Source: an uncultured Schlesneria sp. (GTDB lineage Bacteria > Planctomycetota > Planctomycetia > Planctomycetales > Planctomycetaceae). Taken from it: DNA of 61,974 nucleotides. This document shows positions 13,668 through 18,229 of the stretch, piece by piece. The notes beneath the pieces are model-generated. The model did no database searches. It was given only the letters and a program-made list of their open reading frames with translations, and was not told where the DNA came from. Positions within the stretch are counted from its first letter, which is position 1; each line of letters starts with the position of its first letter. Location: NCBI GenBank assembly GCA_903858935.1, contig CAIOKO010000152.1:1-61974 (forward strand). Reading direction: 5' to 3'. Made by a program: the position numbers and the translations under genes.

Positions 13668-13917
13668 GCGAAGATTCCTTTCCAGAAATCATGATGTCGC
13701 TCAATCAGGAACCAGTACAAAAACAAGCCCATAATCAATCAGACAGTCCCCGACCGTATTCAGACACGCTAGAGTAAACGGCGAAACATGTCAGATGCGC
13801 GACGATCTTTCTATTAAACTAGCACTTCGTTATGAATCAAGGCACGGCCTTGCTGACTGCATTCGATCATTTTCGCTCGCTTTGACTTCCGTTCAGATCA
13901 AACTTGAAAGAACCTCA

Positions 13918-15231
13918 ATGTTTGTTCGACTTCGTCCTCTTGGATTGGGGCTGATTGTTGTCACCGTGATTTCTCTGGCAGTCGGCGTGTCGCGTCCGGT
14001 TCGTTCCGGAAATGCTGTTGCCGACAGCTTGCGGGAAGCTGGTCCACTCAAGTGGTTTCGCGGCAATCTTCACACGCATTCCCATTGGAGCGACGGTGAC
14101 GACTACCCGGAAATGATCGCCGTCTGGTATCGCGACAAAGGCTACGACTTTCTTGTCTTTACCGATCACAACACCATCGCAGACAAAATCCGCTGGGTAG
14201 AGATTGCGCACACGAAAGGTGGAGAAGCGGCTTATGAAAAACTCAAAGCCAGATTTCCTGGCGATTGGATTGAAGAACGAAACAAGGACAACAAGCACGA
14301 AATTCGCCTGAAACGATTCGACGAAGTCTTCGCGAAGTTGAATGAAAAGGATAAGTTCCTGGTGATTCAGGGGGAAGAAATCAGCGACTCATTCGCCAAA
14401 CACCCCATTCACCTGAACGCATCCAATCTCGTCAGGACGATTCCCCCTCACGGTGGCAACAGCGTTTCAGAGACGATTCAAAATGACGTGAACGCTCTGC
14501 ATGCTCAGCGTGAACGAACTCGTCAGCCCATGATGATCCACCTCAATCATCCAAATTTTGCCTGGGGAATCACAGCAGAAGATCTGGCACCGATTCGTGG
14601 TGAGAATTTCTTTGAGGTCTATAACGGTCACCCGACTGTTTACAATCAGGGTGACGAAATTCATGCCTCCACAGAACGGATCTGGGACATTATTAATACC
14701 AGACGTCTGAGCGAACTTAGCCTGCCGCTACTTTTCGGTCTGGCCACTGACGACGGTCATTCGTATCACAATATCCCGTCTCGCGCGAGTGAACCTGGTC
14801 GGGGTTGGGTGATGGTTCTTGCGGAAAAACTTGATCCCGGAGCATTAATTCATGCGATGGAAGCGGGTCGTTTTTACTCGTCATCGGGTGTCACGCTTGA
14901 ACAAGTGGCGTTGACGGAGAAAAGTCTTGAAGTTTCGGTCCGCCCCGATCCCGATGCAACGTATACAATTGAATTTATAGGAACACGAAAAGGGTTCGAC
15001 CCCACGAGTGAACCTGTCGTCGATAAGGCAGGAAAATCTCTCCCTGTCACCAGAAAATACTCGAAAGACATCGGTGAAGTTCTAAAAACTGTGACAGGAA
15101 CGTCGGCGTCATACGCCTTTTCCGGGGACGAGCTGTATGTTCGAGCGAGGATTACCTCATCGAGACCTCATCCAAACCCGTCGGAAATCGGAGAACCTCA
15201 ACGAGCCTGGACGCAACCAGTCACGCCGTAG
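13918..15231 (+). CDS. Exported PHP-domain phosphoesterase-like protein
   Basis: The 437-residue protein begins with a signal-like segment (LGLGLIVVTVISLAVGV). The PHP metal site follows: FRGNLHTHSHWSDG (first two His), FLVFTDHNTI, the Glu in VIQGEEIS, HLNHPNF and a late ATDDGHSYHN. This is the usual set of His, Asp and Glu ligands for the di- or trinuclear metal site. Exported PHP proteins likely hydrolyse phosphate esters; the substrate is unknown. The ATG at 13918 is preferred because the longer frame from 13795 has no leader character. The TAG stop is the first part of the palindrome at 15228-15286. Confidence 0.87.
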   Translation: MFVRLRPLGLGLIVVTVISLAVGVSRPVRSGNAVADSLREAGPLKWFRGNLHTHSHWSDGDDYPEMIAVWYRDKGYDFLVFTDHNTIADKIRWVEIAHTKGGEAAYEKLKARFPGDWIEERNKDNKHEIRLKRFDEVFAKLNEKDKFLVIQGEEISDSFAKHPIHLNASNLVRTIPPHGGNSVSETIQNDVNALHAQRERTRQPMMIHLNHPNFAWGITAEDLAPIRGENFFEVYNGHPTVYNQGDEIHASTERIWDIINTRRLSELSLPLLFGLATDDGHSYHNIPSRASEPGRGWVMVLAEKLDPGALIHAMEAGRFYSSSGVTLEQVALTEKSLEVSVRPDPDATYTIEFIGTRKGFDPTSEPVVDKAGKSLPVTRKYSKDIGEVLKTVTGTSASYAFSGDELYVRARITSSRPHPNPSEIGEPQRAWTQPVTP

Positions 15232-15286: not shown

Positions 15287-16648
15287 TTACCACTTTGTGG
15301 TGGCAGCACGTTCGAGAGTGAAGACCGCCGTTCCATTGCGGAACAGCGTCACAGTCCCCGTTGACTGACTGACGGTAATCGCCATGGCCAGCGTATGAGC
15401 TGAAATTGCGGCTGCCGTTTGATGTCGGGCACCGAGCCCATGAGGCAGGCCGGGCGGCGATGACTTGGGCATCAAGTAAGTCCCGGCGCTGAGAACGGTT
15501 CCATCACCCTGAATGATGAATGCCCCGTCGATCAGGGCGTACTCTTTCATTGTCTCACTCAAGCTGGGGTCGAGGACATTGCGAAGCTGTTTTGAGTATC
15601 CATGAAACGGGTTCAAGACCAGTTGTTGAGCGTTTCGCAAGACGTTGCGCGCGTCACCGACGACGAACATGCAGCCCACCGGATGTGCTTCGCGACCTTC
15701 GGCGGCAATTTCGACCGCCAGAGATAAGACCCTGAGCATGACTGCAGGGCGCACGATATCGATTCCACGACGATTTTTTTCGGACAACATGGCCCGGAAA
15801 TGGGCTTCCGGTTTTGTGACGGTGATACTGTCGAGCCGCCGTCCATCGGGGCCAGTAACACAAATCACACTGGTTTTTTCGTGCAGAAGGTTTTGTGATG
15901 ACGCGAGAAGTTGCCCGAGATTGGCTCGATCCATGCGGGAAAGCGAAGCATGTAAGCCTTCGAACACGTGAGTATCTTCACGATCGATTTGAAAATCTTC
16001 GCTGTGCTCCGTCGTGACGATCAGCAGCCGACCCTTCCATTGAGCCAGCGAATCCCACGGGACACTTTCGAGGCGGTCGATCGCGATCAGCAAAGCCTGT
16101 GCACCCAGCGATTCCACCAACTGCATCGCCTGCTTGACAATGACTTGCGTTAAACGCGGAATCCCAGGGAAACGGACGGGACGCTGATCTGGCTGAATTC
16201 CTGCTTTTGCCAGCAATAATGTATCGATCGTCTTGGTATCTTTCGCATCGATCAGTTGCTGTCGAAACTCGGGCAGCTTTAGCAGTTCAGCCAGTCCCGC
16301 GAGAACTTCGACATGCGTTTGTTGCAGTTTCCGTCCGATGACGAGCAACACGACGAGTTTCACGCTTTGGCCGCTGGGGACTCCATAATCGATCCCCGAT
16401 CGGCTTCGGCCGAGAACGACGCGAAAATCACCTTCCCAGTCGACGAAGGCGTGCGGCAGGGCAAAATCACTGGAAACAAGGGTTTGGGCAGCCGCTTCGC
16501 GTTCTTCAATTGCCTGCAGAACAGTATCCGGAGCGATCCCTTCGTCTTCCCAGTTAGCGGCTTGAACAAGCGCTCGAATGGCGGCAGGACGCTGTTTGAC
16601 CGACAGCTCCACGATCCGAATCGCACTGACCAAATCGCCAAAATCCAA
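15287..16648 (-). CDS. PTS EIIA type-2 / diadenylate cyclase (DAC) fusion
   Basis: This 453-residue protein joins two domains not usually found together. Residues about 1-150 look like a type-2 PTS EIIA (NtrN/EIIA-Fru type), with the phosphorylatable His in SDFALPHAF. Residues about 160-290 form an alpha/beta section (LGAQALLIAIDRLE, GRLLIVTTEH) like the pyruvate-kinase-C-like part of DacZ-type proteins. Residues about 310-445 are a DAC domain: HPVGCMFVVGD, then the catalytic DGAFII and GLGARHQTAAAIS, matching the DGA and RHR motifs. It should make c-di-AMP from two ATP. The start is TTG at 16648, eight bases after GGAGA. It is a single gene. Confidence 0.85.
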   Translation of the reverse strand: MDFGDLVSAIRIVELSVKQRPAAIRALVQAANWEDEGIAPDTVLQAIEEREAAAQTLVSSDFALPHAFVDWEGDFRVVLGRSRSGIDYGVPSGQSVKLVVLLVIGRKLQQTHVEVLAGLAELLKLPEFRQQLIDAKDTKTIDTLLLAKAGIQPDQRPVRFPGIPRLTQVIVKQAMQLVESLGAQALLIAIDRLESVPWDSLAQWKGRLLIVTTEHSEDFQIDREDTHVFEGLHASLSRMDRANLGQLLASSQNLLHEKTSVICVTGPDGRRLDSITVTKPEAHFRAMLSEKNRRGIDIVRPAVMLRVLSLAVEIAAEGREAHPVGCMFVVGDARNVLRNAQQLVLNPFHGYSKQLRNVLDPSLSETMKEYALIDGAFIIQGDGTVLSAGTYLMPKSSPPGLPHGLGARHQTAAAISAHTLAMAITVSQSTGTVTLFRNGTAVFTLERAATTKW

Positions 16649-16960
16649 TGTTTCGTCTCCGCTCGATCGTCACACAAGATGATGCCAACGCAACCGCCAA
16701 CGGTCTTATAGTTCAAGCCACTAAAACATGGCAACCGCGCTCGTCCGGATATTGCAAAAGAATCGATTGATCACGACACGTTTCGTCTGCCGCAAATTCT
16801 CGGTAATGTGAACGTCCGCTTTGTCAGTTTCTGATTCACGGTGCCACTGCTTCTCCAAAGACTCCTAAGCACTGGCACAGAATCTGATTTCGAAAACTGA
16901 CAAATCCGTTCGTTGATTTGACGCGCCCAAGAATCAATAGCAGCCAGTAGGATAGACATC
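16649..16960. other. Divergent intergenic region upstream of the cyclase fusion and an amidohydrolase
   Basis: These 312 bases separate two divergent genes, so both promoters should be here. I see no repeat of the families listed elsewhere and no convincing operator. The short frames that cross it have no ribosome binding site. Confidence 0.5.
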
Positions 16961-18229
16961 ATGAAAACAGCCACAGGATGTACGGTCATCTCGAATGGAT
17001 CGGTGATTGTCGGTACAGGTATCGGACCGATTCCGGACGCGACCGTGATCGTGAGAGACGGAAGGATCGAATATGTTGGCCCGACGAAAGAGGCACCTCT
17101 GTTCGAGCGATCCGCCTCGACCATTGATGCACGTGGCGGGACGATCATGCCGGGCTTGATTGAAGCTCATTTCCATCCGACTTATTTCAATATCGAGGCG
17201 CTGGAAGATCTCGATATCAAGTACCCGGTTGAATATGTCACAATCCTGGCGTCATGCAATGCAAAACTTGCGCTCGAATGCGGGTATACGTCCGCTCGAA
17301 GTGGCGGCAGCCTGTTTAATGTCGACGTCTGGCTGAAAAAGGCGCTTGAGAGTGATTTAATTCCTGGCCCACGTATGGCCACCAGCGGTCGCGAGATTTG
17401 CAGCGTTGGCGGACTGATGGATTGGAATCCCGACTTTCGCAAGATCGGCATGGAAGGCCTTGTGCTGCTCGTGAACGGCCAGGACGAAGCGCGAGCTGCC
17501 GTACGAAAGCTGGTCAAAGATGGTGTCGAATGGGTGAAGACGTACCCGACTGGCGACGCGGCATCACCCGACCTGAATGACCATCACACGTTGTGCATGA
17601 CATTCGATGAAATGCATGCGGTCGTGGCGACAGCCCACAACCATGGATTGAAAGTGACAGGACATTGTCGAGCGACAGAAGGGATCAAGAACGCATTGCG
17701 AGCGGGTTACGACACCATCGAACATGGAACGTTCGTTGACGACGAAGCACTCGAGCTGATCTTGAAGCGGAATACTCCAGTGATTCCCGCGCTCTACTTC
17801 GAACTGGCCAGCATCGAACGGGGACCGGAATTCGGTCTGTCGCAACGTGTCATCGACGGGCACCAGGAAACTTTGGATGGAGGTGCGGAAAGCGCACGCC
17901 GAATTCTCAAAGCTGGTGGACGACTGGGCATGGGAGGAGACTACGGGTTTGGCTGGAACCCACACGGTCACTATGCGCGTGAACTTTCGTTCTTCGTCAA
18001 TTACGTCGGATTCACCCCGCTGGAAACGCTGACCTGTGCGACGAAAACGGGTGCCGAGATTCTTGGCCGCGAGCACGAATTGGGGACTCTTGAAACGGGC
18101 AAGCTTGCCGACGTTCTGGTCGTGGAAGGAGATGTTCTCGCCGACATTTCAATTCTAGAAAACCGAGAACGTTTCATCGCGGTCATGCAGGGGGGGATCG
18201 TCAAGGCGGGTCAGCTGGTTGCAAGATGA
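16961..18229 (+). CDS. Metal-dependent amidohydrolase (imidazolonepropionase/prolidase-like)
   Basis: The protein (422 residues) is an amidohydrolase-superfamily TIM barrel with small beta-sandwich ends. The metal ligands are present: HFHP after strand 1 (PGLIEAHFHP), the Lys in WVKTYPTGD that may be carbamylated, HNHGLKVTGHC, GYDTIEHGTF and the final Asp in MGGDYGFGW. The C-terminus has GTLETGKLADVLVVEGD, typical of the family. Members hydrolyse dipeptides, cyclic amides or N-acyl compounds; the substrate is not assigned. There is no signal peptide, so it is cytosolic. The ATG at 16961 follows AGGAT. Confidence 0.87.
   Translation: MKTATGCTVISNGSVIVGTGIGPIPDATVIVRDGRIEYVGPTKEAPLFERSASTIDARGGTIMPGLIEAHFHPTYFNIEALEDLDIKYPVEYVTILASCNAKLALECGYTSARSGGSLFNVDVWLKKALESDLIPGPRMATSGREICSVGGLMDWNPDFRKIGMEGLVLLVNGQDEARAAVRKLVKDGVEWVKTYPTGDAASPDLNDHHTLCMTFDEMHAVVATAHNHGLKVTGHCRATEGIKNALRAGYDTIEHGTFVDDEALELILKRNTPVIPALYFELASIERGPEFGLSQRVIDGHQETLDGGAESARRILKAGGRLGMGGDYGFGWNPHGHYARELSFFVNYVGFTPLETLTCATKTGAEILGREHELGTLETGKLADVLVVEGDVLADISILENRERFIAVMQGGIVKAGQLVAR

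Follow-up and report, generated by a model that had tools for sequence, protein, structure and literature searches.

The closest described relatives of the protein considered here are the DacZ (DacY-CdaZ) cyclases of archaea and some bacteria, in which, according to the excerpts of Braun et al. (2019, PMC6741144) used here, a pyruvate-kinase-C-like domain is likewise followed by a diadenylate cyclase (DAC) domain. The same excerpts name a class DacD, whose five listed examples are all verrucomicrobial. The cyclases CdaA and DisA are also of interest, as are, for the phosphotransferase (PTS) part of the protein, EIIA-Ntr (PtsN) and the fructose IIA domains.

The window analyzed, a stretch of 61 974 nt from an uncultured Schlesneria sp. 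(contig CAIOKO010000152.1), carries on its minus strand an open reading frame for a protein of 453 aa in which an EIIA domain, a pyruvate-kinase-C-like domain and a DAC domain follow each other (Table 1). A preliminary description, made from the sequence letters, had proposed a fusion of EIIA, an alpha/beta part and DAC on the basis of the motifs SDFALPHAF (with His66), DGAFII (residues 374–379) and GLGARHQTAAAIS (residues 404–416). All three motifs are present, and the architecture was borne out by Pfam matches at both ends of the chain and by three predicted folds in a row. The PTS_EIIA_2 profile (PF00359) scored 61.9 bits and the DAC profile (PF02457) 75.9 bits, each against a cut-off of 27; thus, the fusion is more than a chance resemblance. 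The active-site His of PTS_EIIA_2 is there (His66); the third residue of the DAC motif RHR is Gln410, not Arg. No domains beside these three were found by Pfam or in the predicted fold. The middle part, earlier thought to add a third input, resembles instead the known N-terminal domain of DacZ: the DacZ_P profile (PF21755) gave 17.8 bits in the window protein, below its cut-off of 27.4, and matched 22 of 26 aligned fusions at E ≤ 0.001 in Pfam searches. With this domain sitting directly before DAC, the protein is of the DacZ type in a wider sense.

Table 1. Features of the fusion gene and its product (positions in the window; residues of the 453-aa protein)
Feature	Position	Strand	Remarks
Whole gene	15287..16648	(-)	453 aa, TTG start, TAA stop at 15289-15287
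Shine-Dalgarno-like GGAG	16657..16660	(-)	8 nt before TTG, read from sequence
EIIA domain	16199..16639	(-)	residues 4-150, EIIA-Ntr-like fold
His66, predicted phospho-acceptor	16451..16453	(-)	aligned with His of PtsN; His in 96/107 fusions
Pyruvate-kinase-C-like domain	15806..16162	(-)	residues 163-281; Pfam DacZ_P/DacZ_T weak
DAC domain	15311..15802	(-)	residues 283-446
DGA motif	15521..15529	(-)	residues 374-376; D-G in 107/107 fusions, A in 103
RHQ, replacing RHR motif	15419..15427	(-)	residues 408-410; R-H in 107/107 fusions, third residue variable

Compared with the described classes, the window protein is 35% identical over 200 residues to a Haladaptatus protein annotated as DacZ and differs from DacZ by the EIIA domain in front; the NCBIfam DacZ model NF041371 gave 118.7 bits (residues 240–446), below the equivalog cut-off of 430. 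It has the DAC fold, the DGA motif and the R-H pair in common with CdaA and DisA, but differs from them in consisting just of EIIA, pyruvate-kinase-C-like and DAC segments and in having RHQ for RHR. Its EIIA domain, unlike EIIA-Ntr, is fused to a cyclase, and the PtsN model TIGR01419 gave 26.7 bits, below the equivalog cut-off of 138.7; its profile match to fructose IIA is closer, at 58.7 bits, though likewise below cut-off.

That no EIIA fusion had been described, as was initially supposed, turned out to be the weaker part of the proposal: the EIIA-DAC fusion is real, but it is widespread and has probably already been named, as DacD. This identity, judged from the listed examples, is probable because these are verrucomicrobial and because the fusion was the only DAC detected in 22 of the 22 Verrucomicrobiota genomes tested, all chosen for holding a fusion. 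No EIIA-DAC fusion appeared in the titles or abstract openings of the literature searched, a scope that leaves the 2023 article by Galperin, ‘All DACs in a row’, outside.

The TTG start (16646–16648) is common to the longest reading frames of loci L033, L036–L039 and L042, at the same place. The gene stands alone, its 3′ neighbor (13795–15231, plus strand) being convergent and its 5′ neighbor (16961–18229, plus strand, an amidohydrolase gene) divergent. A plus-strand reading of 15287–16648, or a chance frame, was rejected, as there are several stops on the plus strand. A protein 99% identical was found in an uncultured Schlesneria genome (locus L052), and in comparison with a 99% identical relative (L033) dN/dS was 0.016 for EIIA, 0.007 for the middle domain and 0.006 for DAC, pairs farther apart being at or near synonymous saturation. 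All three domains are under strong purifying selection.

Among the matches listed, the full-length fusion was present in 12 of 199 Planctomycetota genomes; it was also present in 16 of 101 genomes of the Schlesneria family and in all four sampled from the genus, a recurrence that excludes an isolated oddity or a chimeric assembly. Not every genome of the family has the fusion: at E 1e-15, eight of the 101 genomes were without any match, and most had just a short DacZ. A contig scan confirmed at least 559 relatives, of which the best 80 by similarity to the window protein, nearly all from metagenome-assembled genomes, are the loci named in this text. Going by their record titles, they belong to Verrucomicrobiota (33), Planctomycetota (18), Fibrobacterota (15), Spirochaetota (9), Kiritimatiellota, Walliibacteriota and Myxococcota (1 each), with 2 unranked. 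Every reading frame in this set covers EIIA, the middle domain and DAC (with L126 counted although part of its EIIA domain is missing); 78 are complete and the other 2 are cut by the end of their contig.

We also considered that the fusion is an ordinary planctomycete DacZ with an EIIA domain newly added; this was rejected, as fusion and short DacZ coexist in four genomes of the family (G279, G232, G265 and G287). A quick tree was built from 95 fusions and 39 short DacZ, with rows picked by similarity to the window protein and with near-duplicates and one truncated row dropped; in it two changes separate the labels, and a single fused clade was not rejected (p-AU 0.57). One fused lineage would fit this tree; the reading is provisional because long branches meet in it.

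Residue conservation was analyzed in 107 fusions, some of them near-identical and some from genomes reached by two routes. In the EIIA domain, Arg50 is conserved in 106 of them and His66 in 96 (Gln in 9, Lys in 1, a gap in 1); in DAC, D374-G375, R408-H409 and S427 are kept in all 107. The third RHR residue is A in 51, Q in 27, R in 18, E in 5, and S, T and V in 2 each. It also varies in 22 short DacZ and is His in the Haladaptatus protein annotated as DacZ; Arg at this position is therefore not strict in this group. By phylum, within the best 80 of at least 559 relatives, His66 was found in 18 of 18 fusions from Planctomycetota, 33 of 33 from Verrucomicrobiota, 9 of 9 from Spirochaetota and 6 of 15 from Fibrobacterota.

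The ten proteins with a replaced His are nine from Fibrobacterota and the unranked L101: Gln stands in L069, L071, L072, L079, L082, L099, L104, L116 and L101, and Lys in L097. One more fusion, from Wallbacteria (L126:554–1924), has an EIIA domain without the active-site segment, and EI was not found in its genome. The DAC motifs are intact in all eleven.

Counts of EI and of DAC proteins cover 50 fusion genomes drawn from the same best 80 of at least 559 relatives. EI is present in 48 of them, including all ten with Gln or Lys for His66; thus, the His is not lost in step with the relay, and the idea of such a link was discarded. The two genomes where EI was not found are that of L126, which fits with its deleted site, and that of L130 (1.4 Mb), which keeps the His and does not fit. 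In 31 of the 50, no DAC other than the fusion was detected at E 0.001, a count that may overlook a weak DACNV-type copy and is subject to possible incompleteness of the metagenome-assembled genomes. Such single-DAC genomes include three with Gln for the His (L071, L116 and L101) and that of L126, without the site.

The genome of the window has genes for a hibernation factor (Ribosomal_S30AE), EIIA, HPr and EI in a row (L138:3409–6639, minus strand; G000:C172); its EI has three domains only, all of the EI core. A search for EIIC of PF02378, the one EIIC family covered, found none anywhere in the genome. A c-di-AMP riboswitch (RF00379, 62.7 bits, E 4.2e-12; L150:5701–5877, minus strand; G000:C194:23200–23376) lies ~160 nt upstream of a gene for an 802-aa Band_7/SPFH protein. 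A 777-aa protein has 7TMR-HDED, then 7TM-7TMR_HD, then HD, a layout that we take to be PgpH-like, and a channel-like protein has Ion_trans_2, TrkA_N and TrkA_C. A second DAC-related protein (L002:1456–2733, minus strand; G000:C164) shows a DACNV sensor domain at 3.4e-26, a weak DAC match of 25.3 bits and the motif GTRHRSA; because of it, the fusion may not be the sole c-di-AMP synthase of the genome. Taken together, the riboswitch and the PgpH-like, channel-like and DAC-related proteins indicate that c-di-AMP signaling very probably operates in this organism.

What we infer about catalysis, phosphorylation, its polarity and the physiological output is the following. The DAC domain would join two ATP into c-di-AMP between two subunits, with the pyruvate-kinase-C-like domain linking or sensing, and a non-transport PTS relay would carry phosphate from PEP through EI and HPr to His66 of the EIIA domain. 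Taking its phosphate from this relay, the cyclase would read the PEP/pyruvate balance. Unphosphorylated EIIA would permit synthesis and phosphorylation of His66 would restrain it; if c-di-AMP is made in the genomes of L071, L116 and L101 (Gln) and of L126 (no site), the unphosphorylated state must be competent. The product would act on the riboswitch, perhaps also on K+ or osmotic targets, and would be removed by the PgpH-like phosphodiesterase. The suggestion in the preliminary description that phosphotransfer state tunes the c-di-AMP level looks plausible, given the conserved His, EI and HPr in the genome, the riboswitch and the PgpH-like protein. The joint reading, a predicted soluble DacZ-type cyclase with an EIIA relay input, restrained by phosphorylation and set in a riboswitch/PgpH-like circuit, seems to us evenly poised between right and wrong.

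Potassium and osmotic homeostasis are under c-di-AMP control in many bacteria, according to the portion of PMC7900238 drawn on here. In the corresponding portion of PMC9239096, unphosphorylated EIIA-Ntr is said to bind KdpD in several bacteria, and EIIA-Ntr regulation of TrkA appears as the title of a reference. A joint role of EIIA and c-di-AMP in K+ control is an attractive idea, if a wholly conjectural one.

The EIIA domain could also be a docking or structural module without working phosphotransfer, attached to a DacZ cyclase regulated by a partner or a metabolite at the pyruvate-kinase-C-like domain. Gln or Lys replaces His66 in 10 of 107 fusions, all in EI-bearing genomes, and the site is deleted in L126; with DAC motifs intact throughout, these proteins count against an obligatory phospho-control and agree with a mere docking role. 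Nevertheless, His66 is kept in 96 of 107, without exception in the Planctomycetota, Verrucomicrobiota and Spirochaetota fusions counted above, at an overall identity of only ~30–35%, and we consider the docking role rather unlikely, if conceivable. One could go further and make the EIIA domain the main output, donating phosphate to other proteins or binding them, with the cyclase part as a sensor; EIIA-Ntr proteins are indeed regulatory and bind other proteins, KdpD among them (PMC9239096, same portion). Yet the DAC catalytic residues (107/107) are kept more strictly than the EIIA His (96/107), and no second DAC was detected in 31 of 50 fusion genomes, so that such a reversal of roles is hardly credible.

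The Gln at the third RHR position of the window protein, and the choice of A, Q, R, E, S, T or V there among the 107 fusions, could mean that DAC is inactive or makes another product. This is improbable in our judgment, since the position varies in the 22 short DacZ as well and is His in an annotated haloarchaeal DacZ; DacZ of Haloferax volcanii, whose third residue was left out of the comparison, is an active cyclase according to the excerpts of PMC6741144. The purifying selection and the presence of the riboswitch and the PgpH-like protein in the genome also argue against it.

Returning to the relay-fed cyclase, a broader version can be offered tentatively: across several Gram-negative phyla, c-di-AMP would come mainly or solely from a synthase that is PTS-gated via its own EIIA domain, and the PEP/pyruvate state would set c-di-AMP directly. 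If so, the PTS-Ntr and c-di-AMP pathways, elsewhere separate controllers of K+ homeostasis, would be merged in one polypeptide, and the Fibrobacterota Gln forms would be fixed in the state that permits synthesis. The three-part protein is found across several bacterial phyla and so may couple nutrient status to c-di-AMP. Attached to the cyclase, an EIIA domain would give c-di-AMP synthesis a defined input that is open to assay with standard reagents (EI, HPr and His mutants); the EIIA-DAC architecture is, to our knowledge, biochemically untouched. As no DAC besides the fusion was detected in 31 of 50 fusion genomes, such an input would explain c-di-AMP regulation in groups such as Opitutae, where, as far as we know, this messenger is little studied.

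No shared gene neighborhood pointing to PTS or K+ transport was found in 64 of the 80 loci, the other 16 being set aside by the reading-frame filter. Some neighbors recur, with Pfam identities taken from one example run per neighbor type. Immediately upstream of the fusion, 14 loci have an acyltransferase gene, and 9 have a glucose-6-phosphate isomerase gene immediately downstream; these loci are mainly from Fibrobacterota, where the fusion is often found between the two genes (for example, L071:7369–8718 and L069:4032–5210). In 13 Verrucomicrobiota loci the gene just upstream is for NADH dehydrogenase chain 3 (for example, L083:5588–5959).
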